Source: Rhizobium sp. Leaf262 (lineage in GTDB: Bacteria > Pseudomonadota > Alphaproteobacteria > Rhizobiales > Rhizobiaceae). From it: a DNA stretch of 64,000 bases. The stretch lies in contig NZ_LMMM01000021.1 in NCBI RefSeq assembly GCF_001422245.1, positions 1 to 64,000 on the forward strand, read 5' to 3'. A program made the position numbers and the translations under genes. The notes under the pieces were generated by a model that was not told the DNA's origin, searched no databases, and was given only the letters and a program-made list of their open reading frames with translations. This document shows, in pieces, positions 21,739-32,660 of the stretch. Numbering within the stretch: position 1 is the stretch's first letter; every line of letters begins with the position of its first letter.

Positions 21739-23770
<2,032 letters not shown>

Positions 23771-23945
23771 GAATGCTCCAATGAGAAACCTAGCGTCGCA
23801 TTTTGTCAAGCCGCTATCTGCGCCGCCTTTGGGTCTGCGCGTAGTCACGACAAATTAACCTAAGCATTTATTCGAATGTTATTTTTTGAAGCGTAATTCC
23901 AAGAATGAGCTATGATGGCAGCCACTTGACTGGAGACTACTTGAA

Positions 23946-24197
23946 ATGAATTCAACTATTCGTGAAATACTGTCGAAATTCGGCCAGCTGCCAGTATCTG
24001 TCGATACGATTGCCGATGAGGCTGATCTTTACGCAGCAGGCCTGTCGTCTTTCGCGTCCGTACAATTGATGCTTGGACTGGAAGACGCATTCGACATCGA
24101 GTTTCCAGACAGCATGCTCAATCGCAAGTCCTTCGCCAGCATCGCCGCCATCAAGACGACGGTAAAAGCCATTATAGATGGTAAAGAGGCTGCCTGA
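23946..24197 (+). CDS. Acyl carrier protein-like carrier, partner of the amino acid ligase
   Basis: A carrier protein of 83 residues with the four-helix ACP pattern. The 4'-phosphopantetheine Ser is expected at position 35 in YAAGLSSFASVQLML, where the usual Asp-Ser is Ser-Ser. LEDAFDIEFPDSMLNRKSF is the helix II-III segment. It starts a tight operon: its stop overlaps the next start by one base, and an amino acid:[carrier protein] ligase follows. By analogy with the Bradyrhizobium and Agrobacterium systems it should carry glycine or alanine as a thioester rather than a fatty acid. Confidence 0.88.
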   Translation: MNSTIREILSKFGQLPVSVDTIADEADLYAAGLSSFASVQLMLGLEDAFDIEFPDSMLNRKSFASIAAIKTTVKAIIDGKEAA

Positions 24198-25378
24198 TGG
24201 ACGCCTCCGTCGCCTCGACAGATGCGGCGCTTCTCGTGCGTGCGGCACGCGTTGCCGCCATTGCCGCAAAACATGCCGATGACGTCGATACGGTCGGTCG
24301 TTTTCCGAAGGAAGCAATCGCTGCGTTGCGCGAAGAGCGCTTGCTCGGCATTCAGGTTCCCGCGCATCTTGGTGGTGAAGGGGCAAGCCCTCTTCAAATA
24401 ACCGACATCTGCTGCACCCTTGGCCAAGCCTGCTCCGCAACTGCCATGGTTTTCGCCATGCACCAGATCAAGACCTCAAGCCTCGTTGAACATGGGCAAG
24501 ACAGCGAGTGGCACAGCGCTTTCATGCGTCGCATGACCGCTGAACAATTGCTTCTCGGCTCCGCCACCACGGAAGGCGGAATCGGCGGCAACCTGCGCAA
24601 TTCCATATGCGCCATAGAGGTCGAGGGCAAACGCTGCCGCCTGCAAAAAGACGCAACCGTGATTTCCTACGGCAGCGAGGCGGATGCGATCCTCATCACA
24701 TCGAGGGCCAACGCGGAAGCAGCACCCACCGACCAGGTGATGACCGTCTTCCTCAAAAATCAGTACCAGCTTGAAAAGACGCATGTCTGGAACACGCTTG
24801 GCATGCGCGGCACCTGTTCCGATGGCTTTCTGTTCAACGGTGAGGCTCCGTCCGAGCAAATCTTTCCGAAACCGTTTGCAGAAATCGCCGCGCAGTCCAT
24901 GCTGGCAACATCACACCTGTTCTGGAGTGGTGTCTGGTACGGGATTGCGGCTGATGCCGTTGCCCGCGCGCAGGCTTTCGTCCGTGCCGCCGCGCGTAAA
25001 TCACCCGGCGTTACACCGCCCGGCGCGATCCGGTTGGCAGAGGTTTCCAACAAGCTGCAAATCGTCAAGTCGAACATCATCGCTGGCCTGAAAGCCTATG
25101 ATGAAACGAAAACGGACCCCGAAAAACTGATGTCAATGGCTTTCGCCATCGCCATGAACAACGTGAAAATCTGCTCGTCCGAAAGCATTATCGAAATCAT
25201 CAACCACGCCATGCTGATCTGCGGCATCATGGGTTACAAGAATGGAACACCCTACAGTCTTGGTCGCCATCTGCGTGATGCGCATTCGGCACAGCTGATG
25301 ATTTCCAACGACAGAATTTTGAGCAATTCCGCCAACCTCCTGCTGGTTCAGAAGCAGGATACAAGCCTTTTGGGATAA
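24197..25378 (+). CDS. Acyl-CoA dehydrogenase-like flavoprotein
   Basis: Acyl-CoA-dehydrogenase fold, 393 residues. The N-terminal helical domain ([20 protein letters not shown]), the middle beta domain with [20 protein letters not shown], and the C-terminal helical bundle are present. The usual EPxxGSD-type FAD segment is modified (TTEGGIGGN). Located between a carrier protein and an aminoacyl ligase, it may act on an acyl or aminoacyl group held on the carrier, for example by alpha-beta dehydrogenation; that is inference. It overlaps the carrier gene (TGATG) and ends four bases before the ligase. Confidence 0.85.
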
Positions 25379-25382
25379 GACC

Positions 25383-26291
25383 ATGGACATGCAAACATCG
25401 TTTCTCGATCGCCTGTTCGACAAAGGCCTGCTGATCGATACCGGCGTGGACGGCCTATACGGTCGAAGCGGTCAGTTCGAAGACGTTATCGTCACCTTCG
25501 AACGCCTGATCGACAAGGTCGGCGGCGGCGACAAGGCCGAAGCCATCCGCTTCCCGCCCGGCATCAATCGCGCCTATTTCGAAAAAAGCGGTTACATGAA
25601 AAGTTTCCCGCAGCTTGCTGGCACCGTGCATTCCTTCTGCGGCTGCGAGCTCGATCACGTCAGCCTTTTGAAGACAATGGACGAAGGCGAGGACTGGACC
25701 AAGGACCAGAAAGCGACCGATATCGTTCTCACACCGGCTGCTTGCTACCCACTTTATCCGACGATTGCCAAGCGCGGCAACCTGCCAGAAAATGGTGGTC
25801 TCTACGACATTCAGTCCTATTGCTTCCGCCACGAACCCTCCAAGGACCCGGCGCGCCAGCAGCTTTTCCGCATGCGCGAATACGTCCGCATGGGTACCGA
25901 GAGTGACGTCACCGAGTTCCGCCAGCTGTGGATGGACCGTGGTGTCGAGATGATGGAGAAAGTCGGTCTGGACGTAAAGATCGACATCGCCAACGACCCA
26001 TTCTTCGGACGTGCTGGCAAGATGCTGGCTAATAACCAGCGTGACCAGAACCTGAAATTCGAGCTTCTGATACCGGTGACCTCGACCAGCAATCTCACGG
26101 CCTGCATGAGCTTCAACTACCATCAGGATGCCTTCGGCACGAAGTGGGGCCTGAACCTTGCAGACGGTGCGGTCGCACATACTGCCTGCGTCGGCTTTGG
26201 TCTGGAGCGGATCGCACTGGCTCTCTTTGCCAAGCATGGGCTGGATGTGGATCAGTGGCCGCAGCCAGTTCGCGACACGCTTTGGGGTTGA
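25383..26291 (+). CDS. Amino acid:[carrier protein] ligase (seryl-tRNA synthetase-like)
   Basis: A truncated homologue of atypical class II seryl-tRNA synthetase, 302 residues, without a tRNA-binding domain. Characterised relatives (Bradyrhizobium bll0957, Agrobacterium Atu2573) activate Gly or Ala with ATP and load the phosphopantetheine of a carrier protein, not tRNA. Expected zinc ligands are present: Cys121 ([10 protein letters not shown]), Glu166 (RMREYVRMG) and Cys269 ([12 protein letters not shown]), each exactly ten positions below the Cys131/Glu176/Cys279 I recall for bll0957. Class II motif 3 is [12 protein letters not shown]. The physiological role of these enzymes is, to my knowledge, unsettled. 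The operon around it supplies likely partners. Confidence 0.93.
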
Positions 26292-26298
26292 GGCTTGG

Positions 26299-27285
26299 AT
26301 GAAAGCTATATTTCCGGGCTTGAGTGCTGAAAACTACACCCCTCACCCGCTTCATGCGTCTGATCGGATGTGGCCGGAAACGAACTGCTATGTCGATCTG
26401 TGGATCGAACTTCTGGCTTCCAGCGGACTGCCGCCGGAAGCCATGCTCGGCTTCACATTGACCCAGGATTTCGAGGGCGATCAGTTCACCTTTTTCAAGG
26501 TCCCGCTTGAAGATCTTGAGGCGCTCTATGGGATCCGCGTCAGCGAGTTGGCGATTTTCGACACGCTCGAAAGCCATATCGAGATGCAGTCGCGTCGCGG
26601 TCGTATCTGCCTGATCGAGATGGACAGCTTCTACATGCCTGACACGCAGGGCGTGGGCTATCGTAAGGAGCATGGCAAAACCACGATCGCAATCAACCGC
26701 ATGGACTTGGAAAATCGCAAGCTGGAATATTTCCATAATGGTGGATATTTCGCGCTACAGGACGAGGACTTCTCGGGAATTTTCCAGCACCATCTCACCG
26801 ATGGGCATCTTCCATTTCTGCCCTATACGGAGTTCGCGAAGTTTCCCGACATTCCGGTTTCGAATGCGCAGAGGAAGAGCGCGGCAGAACGCCTTTTGGC
26901 GCTTCATTTTGCGCGACGACCGAACCGCAATCCCATCCGGGCTTTCGCGGAGGTTTTTCCGCGGCAGGTCGAAGAGGTCGCCGACCGCCCCTTTGAATTT
27001 TTCCATAAATACGCCTTCAACACGCTTCGTCAGTTCGGTGCCAATTTCGAGCTGGCCGCCAGCCATTTCGAATGGCTAGAACCGGAAGATCGCTACAAAG
27101 AGCCCAGACTGCATGCCCTTCGCATTTCCGAAGTAGCAAAATCGGTGCAGTTTCAACTCGCCCGCGCGATCGCCCGTCGCAAATTCGAGGCACTGGCTAC
27201 GGTGCTCGACCCTGCAATCGCCGCTTGGGACAGCATGATGAGCGAGCTGGAAACAGCATTGGCGAAGACAAGCGAGGCGGCGTGA
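26299..27285 (+). CDS. DUF1839 family protein
   Basis: A soluble protein of 328 residues of the DUF1839 type, with no known activity. Visible features are PHPLHASDRMWPETNCYVDLW near the N terminus, TQDFEGDQFTFFKVPLEDL, LIEMDSFYMPDT and YFHNGGYFALQDEDF. A long helical C-terminal half follows. The start is ATG 26299, seven bases after the ligase stop. DUF1839 genes accompany aminoacyl-carrier ligases, so it may be the acyltransferase or acceptor-handling enzyme that takes the amino acid from the carrier; that is inference only. It overlaps the glycosidase gene by four bases. Confidence 0.8.
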   Translation: MKAIFPGLSAENYTPHPLHASDRMWPETNCYVDLWIELLASSGLPPEAMLGFTLTQDFEGDQFTFFKVPLEDLEALYGIRVSELAIFDTLESHIEMQSRRGRICLIEMDSFYMPDTQGVGYRKEHGKTTIAINRMDLENRKLEYFHNGGYFALQDEDFSGIFQHHLTDGHLPFLPYTEFAKFPDIPVSNAQRKSAAERLLALHFARRPNRNPIRAFAEVFPRQVEEVADRPFEFFHKYAFNTLRQFGANFELAASHFEWLEPEDRYKEPRLHALRISEVAKSVQFQLARAIARRKFEALATVLDPAIAAWDSMMSELETALAKTSEAA

Positions 27286-29747
27286 CCGCATCGTCAGGTT
27301 TTTTGTCCACGAATGAACAGCCCTTGAGCGAGGGCTGGACGCTGACGCTGACGCCAGCGGATGCTTTTCTTGCGCCGGCAGACATTCCCATGGATGCCGA
27401 AGCCGTCACAGCACCCGTACCCGGCACGGTCGCACAAGCACTCGAAGCTTTAGGACGGTATGATCGGCTTCAACCGCACACGCTCAACAATCTCGATGCA
27501 TGGTATCGCCTGACATTGGTTTCAGAGCATATCGGGCCAGCCATCCTGCGGTTTCATGGCCTGGCGACGATTGTCGAAATCTTTGTGAATGGTCAACTCA
27601 CTGCGCATTCGACCAGCATGTTCGAGGCCATCGATGTTCCGGTCGAACTGACGGGAGCCGATGAGCTCGCGCTTTGTTTCCGTGCTCTGGCTCTTCGCCT
27701 TGAAAAAACCGGCCCGCGCGCACGCTGGCGTCCGCAAATGATGAATAGCCAAGGCTTGCGGCTCATCCGCACGACAGCGCTTGGCCATATGCCCGGGTGG
27801 TGCCCTGAAATCCACGCCATAGGACCATGGCGAGGGGTCGGCCTTATAACAAAGTCCCTGTTCGAGATCGTATCGCTTCAAACCGAACTCGGCCCTCAGA
27901 ATACGGGCCTGATACGCATGATAGCGCGTGTTGGCGATGGCTCTTCGGGCATCCGAATTTCCTGCAACGGCGTGTCCGCGCCTCTCGAGCCACGCCACGA
28001 CGGCCTCTTCGAAGGTTGCCTCGAACTGCGAGATATCGAGCCATGGTGGCCCGCAACCCACGGACATCCGGCGCTATATCCGCTGGAGCTGCAGCTGGAT
28101 GATCAGATTTACCCGCTCGGCAAGACGGGCTTTCGCAGGTTCGAGATCGATGAGGGGGCAGATACCAAGGGTTTCGGTCTGAAGGTCAACGGTCAGGCGG
28201 TATTTTGCCGGGGTGCCGTCTGGACCAACGCGGATATCGTTAGACTGCCGGGGGAAAGACGTGATTATGAGCCCTGGCTGCGACTGGCTGCGCAGGCGGG
28301 CATGAACATGATCCGCATAGGAGGCACCATGACGTATGAAACGCAAGAGTTTTTTGCGCTATGCGACGAACTGGGCCTCATGGTGTGGCAAGACATGATG
28401 TTGGCGAATTTTGACTACCCGGCCAAAGATGACGCCTTTCTCGCCCATATCGAGACGGAACTAACGCAACTTCTGCAGGCGACCAACCTGTCTCCGTCAC
28501 TTGCGGTTCTGTGCGGCGGAAGCGAGATGTATCAACAGGGCGCGATGCTGGGACTTTCTGACGCTTTCTGGAAAGGCCCTTTGACAGAGGATGTCCTGCC
28601 GGGACACGTGAGGCGCCTGCGCCCGGACATTGTCTATGTCCCCAACTCGCCTTTTGGTGGCGCCCAGCCCTTTTTCGTAGATACGCAGGTCGGCCATTAT
28701 TACGGTGTCGGCGCCTATTGCAGACCGCTGGAAGATGCGCGCCGTGCAGATGTAAGGTTTGCAGGCGAGTGCCTCGCCTTTTCCAACGTTCCGCAACAGC
28801 AGACCTTGGAAAAGCACCTCCCAGCCAAACCCGTCCATGACCTCAGATGGAAAGCGCGGGTGCCACGAGACCGCGGCGCATCCTGGGATTTCGAGGATAT
28901 CAGGGACCATTATGTAAAGCTGCTTTACGGTATCGATCCTGCCACGATCCGACGCGAGAATGCAGACCGTTATCTCAACCTGTCACGTGCCGCCATCGCC
29001 GAGGTGATGGAGGCGACCTTTGCGGAATGGCGGCGGGTGGGTTCCAGTTGTCGTGGGGCGCTGGTCTGGACACTTCAGGATTTGCTGCCTGGAGCAGGCT
29101 GGGGGGTGATCGATTCGACCGGAGAACCGAAGTCGGCCTGGTACGGGCTGAAAAGGGCCTTTCGACCGCAGCAAATCAACCTTCTGGATGAGGGCACCAA
29201 CGGCCTTAACGTCCATATCATCAATGAAAGCGGGCAGGACGTCGATATCGAGGTTGACGTCACCTGTCTGCGAGACGGACTGCAGCCTGTCGTCTCGGGT
29301 AAACGCGCGCTCACGCTCGCAGCGCGGCAGAGTCAGGCGATCGCCGCAACCGATCTGTTCGGTGCTTTCTTCGATACCACCTATGCTTATCGCTTCGGCC
29401 CGCCGTCTCACGACGTCACGGTGGCAAGGCTTTTCGACCGGCAGTCCGGAAGACTGGTGGCAGATGCGTTTCATTTCCCGAGGGGGCGCAGTGCTGCGCA
29501 GCATGCAAGCGTCTTGAAGGCCGAGGTGAGCCAGGATGGCCAATGCTGGTATCTGCAGGTCGACACCGATCGTTTTGCACAGTCGATCCATATCGCGGTC
29601 GATGGCTTCCGCCCTTCAGACGACTGGTTCCACATGGCGCCCGGCAATTGGCGACGGATCGAATTGATTGCGCTTTCGCCATCGCAGACGGAAAAACCGC
29701 GGGGGGAAATTCGCTCGCTTGGCAGCGACCAACTATTTCGTTTCTGA
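27282..29747 (+). CDS. Glycoside hydrolase family 2 protein (beta-mannosidase-like)
   Basis: A protein of 821 residues with the GH2 order: an N-terminal jelly-roll sugar-binding domain (LDAWYRLTLVSEHIGPAILR), an immunoglobulin-like domain, a TIM barrel (GMNMIRIGGTMTYETQEFF, LMVWQDMMLANFDYP) and C-terminal beta domains. The acid/base candidate is Glu415 in AVLCGGSEMY, where the usual Asn before Glu is Ser. The nucleophile candidate is Glu496 in FAGECLAFSN. No signal peptide is visible, so it appears cytoplasmic. It starts at GTG 27282 (GTGA overlap) and ends the carrier-protein operon. It may trim or build a glycoside linked to the aminoacyl pathway. Confidence 0.83.
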   Translation: MTASSGFLSTNEQPLSEGWTLTLTPADAFLAPADIPMDAEAVTAPVPGTVAQALEALGRYDRLQPHTLNNLDAWYRLTLVSEHIGPAILRFHGLATIVEIFVNGQLTAHSTSMFEAIDVPVELTGADELALCFRALALRLEKTGPRARWRPQMMNSQGLRLIRTTALGHMPGWCPEIHAIGPWRGVGLITKSLFEIVSLQTELGPQNTGLIRMIARVGDGSSGIRISCNGVSAPLEPRHDGLFEGCLELRDIEPWWPATHGHPALYPLELQLDDQIYPLGKTGFRRFEIDEGADTKGFGLKVNGQAVFCRGAVWTNADIVRLPGERRDYEPWLRLAAQAGMNMIRIGGTMTYETQEFFALCDELGLMVWQDMMLANFDYPAKDDAFLAHIETELTQLLQATNLSPSLAVLCGGSEMYQQGAMLGLSDAFWKGPLTEDVLPGHVRRLRPDIVYVPNSPFGGAQPFFVDTQVGHYYGVGAYCRPLEDARRADVRFAGECLAFSNVPQQQTLEKHLPAKPVHDLRWKARVPRDRGASWDFEDIRDHYVKLLYGIDPATIRRENADRYLNLSRAAIAEVMEATFAEWRRVGSSCRGALVWTLQDLLPGAGWGVIDSTGEPKSAWYGLKRAFRPQQINLLDEGTNGLNVHIINESGQDVDIEVDVTCLRDGLQPVVSGKRALTLAARQSQAIAATDLFGAFFDTTYAYRFGPPSHDVTVARLFDRQSGRLVADAFHFPRGRSAAQHASVLKAEVSQDGQCWYLQVDTDRFAQSIHIAVDGFRPSDDWFHMAPGNWRRIELIALSPSQTEKPRGEIRSLGSDQLFRF

Positions 29748-29942: not shown

Positions 29943-32660
29943 ATGGAAAAAAGTTTAACCCGCTATATCTGGAATCACACGCGGCGGCAGCAGCTTTTCA
30001 TTCTGCTGATTGTCGCTCTGTCGATGATTCCCTATTTTCTGGCTTTCGACCTGCCTAAGCAGATCGTCAACGGCCCGATTCAAGGCGATGGTTTCGAAGG
30101 CGTCAACTCCACTCAGCTCTTCATGCATCTGACGCTCGATCTTCCCTATATGGGAAAGGTCACGCTCTTCCCCGGCATCGAATTGACACGCCTTGGCATG
30201 TTGATGGGTTTGAGCCTGACGTTTCTGGCGCTGGTCATCGTCAACGGTCTCTTCAAATATTACATCAACACCTATAAGGGCCGCCTCGGCGAACGCCTGC
30301 TCCGCAGAATCCGCTTCCAACTGATCGACCGGATCCTGTTGTTTCCACCCTCCCATTTCAAGCGCGTCAAGGGGGCGGAAATATCCAGCATGATCAAAGA
30401 CGAGGTGGAGCCACTGGGTGGCTTTACCGGCGACGCCTTCGTTCAACCGGCACTGTTAGGCGGTCAGGCGCTGTCGGCACTCTTCTTCATTCTCGTGCAG
30501 AATTTCTGGCTTGGCCTCATCGCGGCCTTCATGGCGGCGATCCAGGTCGGCATCATACCCAAAATGCGCCGCCGCCTGATCGAGCTGGGCAGGCAGCGGC
30601 AGTTGAGCGCGCGACAACTTGCGGGCAGAATCGGTGAAATGGTCGACGGCATCGGCACGATCCACGCCTATGATACGTCCAATTACGAGCGTGCGGACGC
30701 CGCCCACCGGCTGGGCGAAATCTTCAAGATCCGTTACGACCTCTACCAGTGGAAATTCATCGTCAAGTTCATCAACAACTTCCTGGCACAGCTGACACCC
30801 TTCTTCTTCTACGCGCTGGGCGGCTACCTGACACTACGCGGCAGCCTCGACGTCGGCCAGCTCGTCGCGGTCATAAATGCCTATAAGGAACTGCCAGGCC
30901 CGCTGAAGGAACTGATCGACTGGGATCAGGCCCGTCAGGACGTTCAGGTCAAATACGAGCAGGTCTTCGAGCAGTTCGATTCGCCCACGATGATCGACTC
31001 CAAGATTCAGGCGCTGTCGCCCGAAGCGGCTGCGGCCATCACCGGGCCAATCGTCATCGCCGGCTTGTCGCTCGACGACGACAGCGGCACACGCCTGCTG
31101 GATCAGGCGTCTTTGACGATCAATCCAGGCGAAACCATCGCGATCGTCGGCGGCTCTGGCGCCGAAGCGCTGGCCGACGCATTGGGACGGACGCTGTGGC
31201 CGACATCCGGCAAGATCACATTTGGCGATACGGACCTTCATGAATTGCCGGAATCCGTCACTGGACGTCGCATTTCCTATGTATCGGCCGACACCTATTT
31301 CTTCCATGCGAGCCTGAAGGAAAACCTTGTCTACGGCCTGAAACATGCTCCGCTCAAGCCGAGGGAATACGAAGGCGCGGAACTGCTGCATCGCAAGTGG
31401 GAAATTCGCGAGGCAAAGCTGGCGGAAAACCCGGATATCGATATCAACAGCGACTGGATCGACTATCAGTCCAGCCCCGCCGGTTGTGATGAAGAGGAAC
31501 ATTTCCTCAAAGCCATGCTGGCCGTGCTCGACACGGTTCAGCTATCCCCGGATATTCTCGAATTTGCGCTGCGTTCCTCGATCGATCCGTCGACCGACAT
31601 GTATCTGGCGGAACGGATCGTCGAATTGCGACAGGCCCTGCGCGCAGAACTCGATGAAGAGAACCTCAGCGGCCTGATCGTGCCCTTCGAGCCCAGCAGC
31701 TACAATGCCGAAGCCACGGTTGGCGAGAACATCATGTTTGGAACGTTGTGCGACTCCTCCGTCTCCAGCCGCCAGATCATCGACAGCGACTATTTCCGTT
31801 CGCTCATGCGCAGCAGCGGGCTCTCCGAGACGCTTTTCGACATGGGATACACCATCGCAGAGAACGTCGTTGAAATCTTCAGCGACCTGCCTCCAGATCA
31901 TCCCTTCTTCCAGCAGCTGACCTTCATGACCGCGGACGATATTCCCGGCTATCAGCAGATGCTCCAGCGTCTTCAGGGCAAGGGCTATAAGGATGCGACG
32001 GAGGCCGAGCGGCGGGCAATGTTGCGTTTGGCATTCTTCTACATCGAGCCCCGGCAGCGTTTCGGCTTGCTGACGCAGGAGGTGATGGACAAGATCATCG
32101 AAGTCAGACACATGTTCCACGAAAAACTGCCTGACGATCTCCGCACTTGGATCGAGCCTTACGACCCTGAAAAATATGCGACATCGACCAGCCTTCTGGA
32201 CAACATCCTGTTTGGCAAAATCAGCCATCGCTACGCCGACGCGTCTCGTCGCATTACCAAAATCGTCGCGGACGCGATGAAGAAACAAGGCCTTTATGAG
32301 CGGGTTCTTGCCGTGGGACTGGAATTCAACCTGGGCGCAGGTGGCAAGCGGCTAGGTCCGTTGCAGCGACAAAAGCTCAATCTTGCGAGGGCTTTGATCA
32401 GGAAGTCTGACTACTATGTCTTGAACCGTCCACTTCCCGGTCTCGATCACAGGCTACAGCAGGAAATCGTCGACAATGTCATTGCATTTTTGCGCAATGA
32501 CGGTTCATGCCCGACCGTTTTATGGGTGCTGTCCAATCCATCCCTATCGAAAATGTTTGATCGTGTTATCGTGATCAATCAAGGCACCGTTGTCGCAGAT
32601 GGAACATACGAGACTCTTGTGGAAGAAAACGGTACATTCAAGGAAATGATCGCGGCATAG
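29943..32660 (+). CDS. ABC-exporter-like membrane protein with a degenerate, expanded nucleotide-binding domain
   Basis: A protein of 905 residues. Residues about 15-340 are a type IV ABC exporter membrane domain with an ordinary coupling-helix pattern (RIGEMVDGIGTIHAY). The nucleotide-binding domain that follows has lost its motifs: Walker A is VGGSGAEAL (Lys replaced by Ala409), the signature is LGPLQ (804-808) instead of LSGGQ, Walker B reads YYVLNRPLPGLD without the acidic pair, and the H-loop is VLSNP without His. The domain is enlarged by about 300 residues and contains three Q-loop-like segments, each ending in (E/D)N(L/I)(V/M/L)(Y/F)G: about 446-465, 580-600 and 737-758. It probably does not hydrolyse ATP by itself. 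It may be a sensor or scaffold, or may pair with another ATPase. A cyclic-nucleotide-binding gene follows within 45 bases. Confidence 0.85.
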   Translation: MEKSLTRYIWNHTRRQQLFILLIVALSMIPYFLAFDLPKQIVNGPIQGDGFEGVNSTQLFMHLTLDLPYMGKVTLFPGIELTRLGMLMGLSLTFLALVIVNGLFKYYINTYKGRLGERLLRRIRFQLIDRILLFPPSHFKRVKGAEISSMIKDEVEPLGGFTGDAFVQPALLGGQALSALFFILVQNFWLGLIAAFMAAIQVGIIPKMRRRLIELGRQRQLSARQLAGRIGEMVDGIGTIHAYDTSNYERADAAHRLGEIFKIRYDLYQWKFIVKFINNFLAQLTPFFFYALGGYLTLRGSLDVGQLVAVINAYKELPGPLKELIDWDQARQDVQVKYEQVFEQFDSPTMIDSKIQALSPEAAAAITGPIVIAGLSLDDDSGTRLLDQASLTINPGETIAIVGGSGAEALADALGRTLWPTSGKITFGDTDLHELPESVTGRRISYVSADTYFFHASLKENLVYGLKHAPLKPREYEGAELLHRKWEIREAKLAENPDIDINSDWIDYQSSPAGCDEEEHFLKAMLAVLDTVQLSPDILEFALRSSIDPSTDMYLAERIVELRQALRAELDEENLSGLIVPFEPSSYNAEATVGENIMFGTLCDSSVSSRQIIDSDYFRSLMRSSGLSETLFDMGYTIAENVVEIFSDLPPDHPFFQQLTFMTADDIPGYQQMLQRLQGKGYKDATEAERRAMLRLAFFYIEPRQRFGLLTQEVMDKIIEVRHMFHEKLPDDLRTWIEPYDPEKYATSTSLLDNILFGKISHRYADASRRITKIVADAMKKQGLYERVLAVGLEFNLGAGGKRLGPLQRQKLNLARALIRKSDYYVLNRPLPGLDHRLQQEIVDNVIAFLRNDGSCPTVLWVLSNPSLSKMFDRVIVINQGTVVADGTYETLVEENGTFKEMIAA

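Follow-up and report, generated by a model that had tools for sequence, protein, structure and literature searches.

A conserved five-gene aminoacyl carrier protein cassette in Rhizobium sp. Leaf262, with DUF1839 as a candidate aminoacyl transferase

What becomes of an amino acid that has been loaded on a carrier protein? Carrier-loading ligases that resemble aminoacyl-tRNA synthetases (aaRS) were reported in 2010, and the relevant passage of a 2022 review still gives the role of the loaded carriers as unknown (PMC9437257). The question is raised again by a five-gene cassette in the window, that is, the whole 64,000-nucleotide stretch of DNA analysed here (Rhizobium sp. Leaf262, NZ_LMMM01000021.1, positions 1-64,000, forward strand). 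The evidence gathered on this cassette narrows the question to aminoacyl transfer by its DUF1839 protein from the carrier to a sugar. If that were true, DUF1839 would represent a new aminoacyl transferase family and probably point to a new way in which plant-associated bacteria decorate glycans. A pathway of this kind has been in print since 2010, in a note added in proofs (PMC2922099), and hence is not new; new here are the quantitative co-occurrence of the genes, the missing catalytic Glu of the flavoprotein, the pairs of putatively active and Cys-less DUF1839 copies, the linked loss of the DUF1839 cysteine and the ligase, and the alternative partners.

The cassette and its conservation

The genes of the cassette were as follows.

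23946..24197, +, aminoacyl carrier protein, 83 aa (NF005480 match; PDB 2jq4 and 4h2w-4h2y chain C)
24197..25378, +, acyl-CoA-dehydrogenase-like (ACAD) flavoprotein, 393 aa (PF02771, PF00441)
25383..26291, +, zinc aaRS-like amino acid:[carrier protein] ligase, 302 aa (NF005479; PDB 4h2w and 3mey)
26299..27285, +, DUF1839 protein, 328 aa, proposed papain-like aminoacyl transferase (PF08893)
27282..29747, +, GH2 glycosidase, 821 aa, beta-mannosidase-like (PF22666; beta-mannosidase structures)

Five adjoining genes had been described in the initial annotation, and all five frames were found on the + strand, in the families named and with gaps of -1, +4, +7 and -4 bases in cassette order. The DUF1839 and GH2 starts are internal start sites within longer listed open frames; the GH2 start is a GTG and overlaps the DUF1839 stop. 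Frames of 667-704 aa had raised the suspicion of ACAD-ligase fusions; these proved to run over the ACAD gene in a different reading frame, and fusion was rejected.

GTDB genomes were scanned with DUF1839, and the best 80 of 558 confirmed relatives were kept. All five genes were present in the same order and on one strand at 80/80 of these loci, an arrangement that is not due to chance. The 80 loci are not independent, because they were drawn from Rhizobiaceae, Brucella/Ochrobactrum-type records and some other Rhizobiales or Proteobacteria; the four nearest named relatives of the window's DUF1839 among them were Agrobacterium records (79-81% identity), which marks the window as Agrobacterium-like. 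A sample of the phylum (398 genomes) contained a ligase above cut-off in 28 genomes and DUF1839 in 16, and in 16/16 of the latter the ligase lay side by side with DUF1839. The gene-neighbourhood survey proposed for this operon therefore showed that the five genes do co-occur. Weak ligase-like matches only were obtained from 16 further genomes of the sample; six such loci were read and had no match to the carrier, flavoprotein, DUF1839 or GH2, and one distant ATP-binding cassette (ABC) match.

Among the first 38 stretches, the cassette was complete at 18/18 DUF1839 operon loci, and one stretch held a second DUF1839 copy alone. GH2 was found at none of the 13 ligase loci in this set that lacked DUF1839, nor at any of six such loci in f81, one bacterial family, which we take, as a guess, to be the Burkholderiaceae. 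GH2 was thus seen only in loci carrying DUF1839, and the flavoprotein and ligase also occurred without either. Since GH2 was seen only alongside DUF1839, a common substrate of the two proteins is suggested.

In a 150-genome sample of f81, DUF1839 was present in 60/150 genomes, 56 of which also had a ligase above cut-off; the ligase occurred without DUF1839 in five more, in one of them split in two pieces. When 188 loci were scanned (a count in which at least one genome was entered twice, as L077 and L107), DUF1839 lay within a complete cassette in 94/94 copies outside f81 and in 55/85 inside it. All 30 copies outside a complete cassette were from f81: 24 had no upstream operon partner, being second or displaced copies, and six were in partial operons.

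Conserved residues of the cassette proteins

The window's carrier scored 123.6 bits against PRK07081/NF005480 (cut-off 72) and matched PDB 2jq4 (Atu2571) and chain C of 4h2w-4h2y with an expect value (E) of about 1e-40. Its phosphopantetheine site, located by alignment to the carrier motif, is Ser35, which was kept in 167/168 rows. The ligase scored 512 bits against PRK07080/NF005479 (cut-off 357) and matched 4h2w (E 4e-95) and 3mey (Bll0957; E 6e-90). The zinc ligands Cys121, Glu166 and Cys269 had been placed correctly in the initial annotation and were invariant in 168/168 aligned ligases (matches over 200 residues). Its pairing of ligase and carrier was borne out as well: the 4h2w-4h2y crystal structures contain relatives of both proteins together. 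No tRNA-binding domain was found in the 302-aa ligase, the match to a type-2 seryl-tRNA synthetase structure being confined to residues 113-298. Glycine is the amino acid of the Agrobacterium enzyme. Loading has been shown for relatives by others; according to the review's account of the family, Gly or Ala is placed on the carrier and not on tRNA (PMC9437257).

DUF1839 scored 434 bits against PF08893 (cut-off 22.5). In the part of a 2023 survey that treats this family, a papain-like fold with a C-(T/S)-H site was assigned, together with the suggestion that it might process cell-wall glycans in an acyl-CoA-dependent manner (PMC10318531). Cys30, His125, Thr129 and His146 were all kept in 94/94 copies outside f81, and the catalytic residues are predicted to be Cys30, Thr129 and either His146 or His125.

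The picture inside f81 was more complex. Two or three DUF1839 copies were found in 24 genomes; a Cys30-bearing copy was present in 24/24 and a Cys-less copy as well in 22/24. In ten genomes the operon copy lacked Cys30 (Arg or Gln) and a copy elsewhere had it, and in 12 the operon copy had Cys30 and the copy elsewhere had Ala, Ser or Gly. The remaining two genomes had two full Cys-bearing cassettes (G531) and two Cys-bearing copies outside the operon (G542). The DUF1839 tree, obtained from a quick, short search with SH-aLRT support only, required at least four changes of the Cys state (99 rows: 85 f81 copies, 13 others and the window), so the losses represent few events and not 22. Median pairwise dN/dS of the Cys-less copies was 0.18 (11 of the 12 genomes) and 0.14 (seven of the ten), and that of the Cys-bearing copies of the corresponding genomes was 0.12 and 0.22; the Cys-less paralogues are under purifying selection and are not decaying. 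Among these Cys-less second copies, kept in company with Cys-bearing ones, are those at L205, L208, L210, L213 and L220 of f81.

The cysteine followed the ligase. A Cys-bearing copy was present in 56/56 f81 genomes that had both ligase and DUF1839 (Fisher test 1e-4, kinship ignored), and the cysteine was lost in three of the four f81 DUF1839 genomes that had no ligase above cut-off. One genome that was ligase-less by the cut-off (G465) had a weak ligase match elsewhere (113.6 bits), and another (G516) had lost both the DUF1839 cysteine and Ser35 of the carrier. We take the pattern in f81 as circumstantial evidence that the DUF1839 cysteine would work on the ligase product. The earlier suggestion that DUF1839 is a possible transferase is thus plausible, given a papain-like fold already in print and a cysteine that tracks the ligase. 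One genome (G456) had no flavoprotein or GH2 match and kept the ligase, carrier and two DUF1839 copies; no simple scheme fits it. At two loci (L269 and L272) the carrier and the flavoprotein stood with a DUF1839 that lacks Cys30 and His146, and neither ligase nor GH2 was nearby; these cassettes are labelled here as decayed or re-purposed.

The N-terminal GH2 domain PF22666 scored above cut-off, and the closest solved relatives were beta-mannosidases (E 2e-40), from which hydrolysis of a beta-mannoside is predicted. Glu415 and Glu496, which align to the catalytic pair of solved enzymes and presumably act as acid/base and nucleophile, were present in 148/148 rows (matches over 600 residues; shorter ones were dropped). 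No signal-peptide-like stretch was seen in the window's GH2 in a simple hydropathy scan, and the enzyme is therefore probably cytosolic.

The flavoprotein had been described as acyl-CoA dehydrogenase-like. This held for its N- and C-terminal family domains, PF02771 and PF00441, which both scored above cut-off, and failed for the catalytic glutamates. Across 167 rows, no Glu was found in the columns aligned to either classical catalytic place (which we take to be MCAD Glu376 and IVD Glu254): column 369 was Ile in 167/167, and column 239 was Ser (in the window), Ala, Cys or Thr. The neighbouring columns 366 and 372 held Glu in nine and six rows, respectively, and His240, Ile369, Asn371 and Arg373 were invariant. 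Loss of Glu alone is no proof of inactivity, because a solved protein named as a short-chain acyl-CoA dehydrogenase (7p98) carries Thr at one of the places. The top single-sequence structural matches included DnmZ, two FAD-dependent oxidoreductases (3m9v, 4kcf; presumably enzymes that N-oxygenate amino sugars) and a dehydrogenase, and the profile search favoured dehydrogenases. Classical alpha,beta-dehydrogenation by this flavoprotein appears unlikely, since it is impossible on glycine and the catalytic places carry no Glu.

Proposed pathway, alternative partners and rival explanations

Under the scheme that we favour, the ligase would adenylate glycine (or alanine) and attach it to the carrier's phosphopantetheine arm, and the flavoprotein would oxidise the aminoacyl group on the carrier without recourse to the classical catalytic Glu; oxygenation at nitrogen or at C-alpha is our guess for this step. 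The DUF1839 cysteine would then take the acyl group and pass it to a cytosolic glycan intermediate, either a sugar nucleotide or a lipid-linked oligosaccharide, and GH2 would edit or trim this acceptor glycan. The cassette, its apparently intact catalytic residues and the linked fate of the ligase, the DUF1839 cysteine and GH2 are what the sequences themselves bring to this scheme; from them we infer the oxidation, the transfer and the glycan acceptor. Taken as a whole, we consider the scheme evenly balanced between right and wrong. A wider and more tentative picture, which we rate as rather doubtful, is that bacterial glycans are decorated with oxidised (for example N-oxygenated) glycine by an aaRS-derived ligase, a Glu-less flavoenzyme and DUF1839, with an obligatory pair of active and Cys-less DUF1839 proteins in one family and replacement by an alpha/beta-hydrolase or a GNAT-like protein elsewhere.

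That other proteins may stand in for DUF1839 is suggested by loci without it. At the 13 ligase loci without DUF1839, the ACAD gene adjoined the ligase in 13/13, a divergent carrier was present in 11/13 and a 300-aa protein in 8/13; GNAT matches of the latter were weak in two of three tested (E 0.004 and 0.19) and absent in the third. In f81, a 600-aa tandem alpha/beta-hydrolase followed the ligase on the same strand at five of the six loci where the ligase lay away from DUF1839 (the sixth has its ligase in pieces, and the second ligases of G507, G517 and G526 were left out). Its second half carries the nucleophile box G-x-C-[ST]-G, with Cys in 73/73 rows (one locus counted twice), and the nucleophile Ser of the first half was found in only 4/73. 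Since some DUF1839-less loci carry an alpha/beta-hydrolase or a weakly GNAT-like protein instead, carrier, flavoprotein and ligase may form a module that can be combined with more than one type of acyl-transfer enzyme. The hydrolase was present in 56/118 stretches, comprising 55/98 cassette stretches, one stretch with a second DUF1839 copy and 0/13 of the DUF1839-less ones. The earlier view of the five genes as a complete pathway was not borne out, as this hydrolase lies within the same 20 kb in those 55 cassette loci. The window's genome has one such protein, on another contig, near genes with weak matches to GT4 queries and a gene that by eye resembles a flippase gene.

Other arrangements around the ligase were also seen. 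About 6 kb separated two oppositely oriented ligase genes at L277 and L278, one of which was followed by the tandem hydrolase; no carrier or flavoprotein was found nearby (tblastn, E 1e-4). An AMP-binding ligase and a short-chain dehydrogenase stood near the aaRS-like ligase at four variant loci (L074, L080, L082 and L083), and L083 had a second carrier protein in addition.

Upstream of the cassette, the window has one further feature, which lies outside the cassette and bounds its promoter region.

23666..23777, -, thiamine pyrophosphate (TPP) riboswitch (Rfam RF00059, 74.6 bits)

The riboswitch precedes a thiC-like gene (named by eye) that is divergent from the cassette, and control of the cassette by TPP was rejected because the aptamer sits on the other strand. 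Promoter- and terminator-like sites at the cassette were no more frequent than in shuffled sequence. Downstream, a gene at 29943-32660 (+) encodes an ABC-type protein of 905 aa in which about 260 residues interrupt the nucleotide-binding domain; judged by eye, its Walker A and B motifs seem degenerate. An ABC-type gene followed the cassette in 23/80 loci, where genes for a cyclic-nucleotide-binding protein and a metallo-beta-lactamase (MBL)-fold protein came next; membership of these three genes in the system was rejected because just those 23 loci have them.

The link to glycans was judged from the surroundings of the cassettes. Pfam searches with 20 neighbour proteins chosen by eye returned polysaccharide flippases, Wzz/Wzc, sugar transferases, ManC, an O-antigen-ligase domain and GT4. 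By a crude count with 13 query proteins, polysaccharide-type genes were present in 42/98 cassette stretches, a count that supports the glycan idea only weakly because its queries came from the very loci that were counted.

Several results weigh against the scheme of transfer to a glycan. The same 13 queries matched 0/25 Agrobacterium-like stretches and nothing in the 20 kb round the window's cassette, and they matched 4/13 stretches of the DUF1839-less variant; for these reasons the tie to glycans is weak and of uncertain specificity. One f81 genome (G572) had no ligase above cut-off, yet kept the DUF1839 cysteine. The Fisher tests on co-occurrence (2e-21 and 3e-30) ignored kinship. Profile comparison of DUF1839 with BtrH, the papain-like enzyme on which the transfer step is modelled, gave E values of 0.015 (probability 3%) and 0.04, with 0.041 for the unrelated flavoprotein used as a control; kinship by this method was not significant, and little better than controls. 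The chemistry of the flavoprotein counts on the same side, its reaction being one that we infer.

It is unlikely, in our estimation, that the cassette instead makes a small diffusible molecule, such as an opine- or toxin-like modified glycine amide, ester or glycoside, with a small metabolite as acceptor and a glycosylated precursor that GH2 sets free or activates. Such a product would fit the absence of polysaccharide-type matches round the window's cassette and at the 25 Agrobacterium-like loci, the general experience that carrier-loaded amino acids usually feed small-molecule pathways, and the ABC-type gene that follows some cassettes. That gene, however, is missing in 57/80 loci and, judged by eye, encodes degenerate-looking ATPase motifs, polysaccharide-type genes do adjoin cassettes elsewhere, and a single gene order across distant bacteria would, in our judgement, be unusual for a toxin-like product. 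Decidedly unlikely, as we see it, is a role of DUF1839 as an editing thioesterase or a protease-like processing enzyme, with offloading left to another enzyme such as the tandem Cys alpha/beta-hydrolase. The invariant Cys box of the hydrolase, its presence in over half of the cassette stretches, its position after the ligase at five of six DUF1839-less f81 loci and its place among glycosyltransferase-like genes on another contig of the window's genome all speak for this possibility; its absence from 43/98 cassette stretches, set against a DUF1839 that lies in the cassette in every copy outside f81, speaks for DUF1839 as the transferase. We regard it as very improbable that the flavoprotein has no role in oxidation, having lost catalysis or serving as a carrier-binding scaffold, and that unmodified glycine is transferred. 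The lack of Glu at both classical places in 167/167 rows would be expected of such a protein, but its four invariant residues and its position beside the ligase in 13/13 DUF1839-less loci argue against it, and in view of the Thr of 7p98 the missing Glu is by itself no proof of inactivity.

Comparison with known systems

The closest published precedent is the 2010 prediction of a StRS-ACP-redox system, which is said to be the work of Iyer, Aravind and colleagues. As set out in its note added in proofs, a system of StRS, ACP, a redox enzyme, Atu2574 and a glycosidase was predicted for Agrobacterium, in which the modified amino acid is ligated by Atu2574 to the amino group of a cell-surface sugar; mono-oxygenation was also suggested (PMC2922099). 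With Atu2571 as the carrier, Atu2574 is taken here to be the DUF1839 gene. The redox enzyme is called Rossmann-fold in that note, whereas the one in the cassette is an acyl-CoA-dehydrogenase-like flavoprotein, and the text on the operon gives no counts, active-site analysis or DUF1839 name (PMC2922099). Among the matches listed from the open-access literature, the scope of the search, there was no experimental follow-up of the operon or of DUF1839 and nothing useful on glycine-bearing polysaccharides; the relevant part of a 2025 transcriptome paper gives Atu2573 as a co-expression hub gene (PMC11941606).

The solved proteins Bll0957 (PDB 3mey, 4h2s, 4h2w) and Atu2571 (2jq4) share with the cassette the ligase family, the zinc ligands and the carrier family. 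The Bradyrhizobium-like ligase loci, an attribution that is itself a guess, differ from the cassette in having neither DUF1839 nor GH2. The tandem alpha/beta-hydrolase, of which there is none in the window, matched exosortase A-associated hydrolases 1 and 2 (TIGR03100, TIGR03101) below cut-off with its two halves and, unlike these, has both halves fused in one protein.

Two systems offer parallels for the proposed transfer. In the Dlt system, which D-alanylates teichoic acids, a carrier likewise bears a small amino acid that is then attached to a polymer at the cell surface. Its ligase, DltA, is of the AMP-binding type, and transfer depends on the membrane proteins DltB and DltD; the cassette, in contrast, has an aaRS-type ligase and none of these components among its five genes, and its carrier gave a weak match of 28.6 bits to the DltC model (cut-off 68). 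BtrH of butirosin biosynthesis offers a model for how DUF1839 might work, being a papain-like cysteine enzyme, an acyl-carrier-protein:aminoglycoside acyltransferase, whose acyl donor is a carrier protein and whose acceptor is an amino sugar. No match to BtrH_N (PF14399) was found in DUF1839 up to E 10 in the Pfam search; both proteins are nevertheless placed in the papain-like superfamily in the section of the 2023 survey that covers them (PMC10318531).

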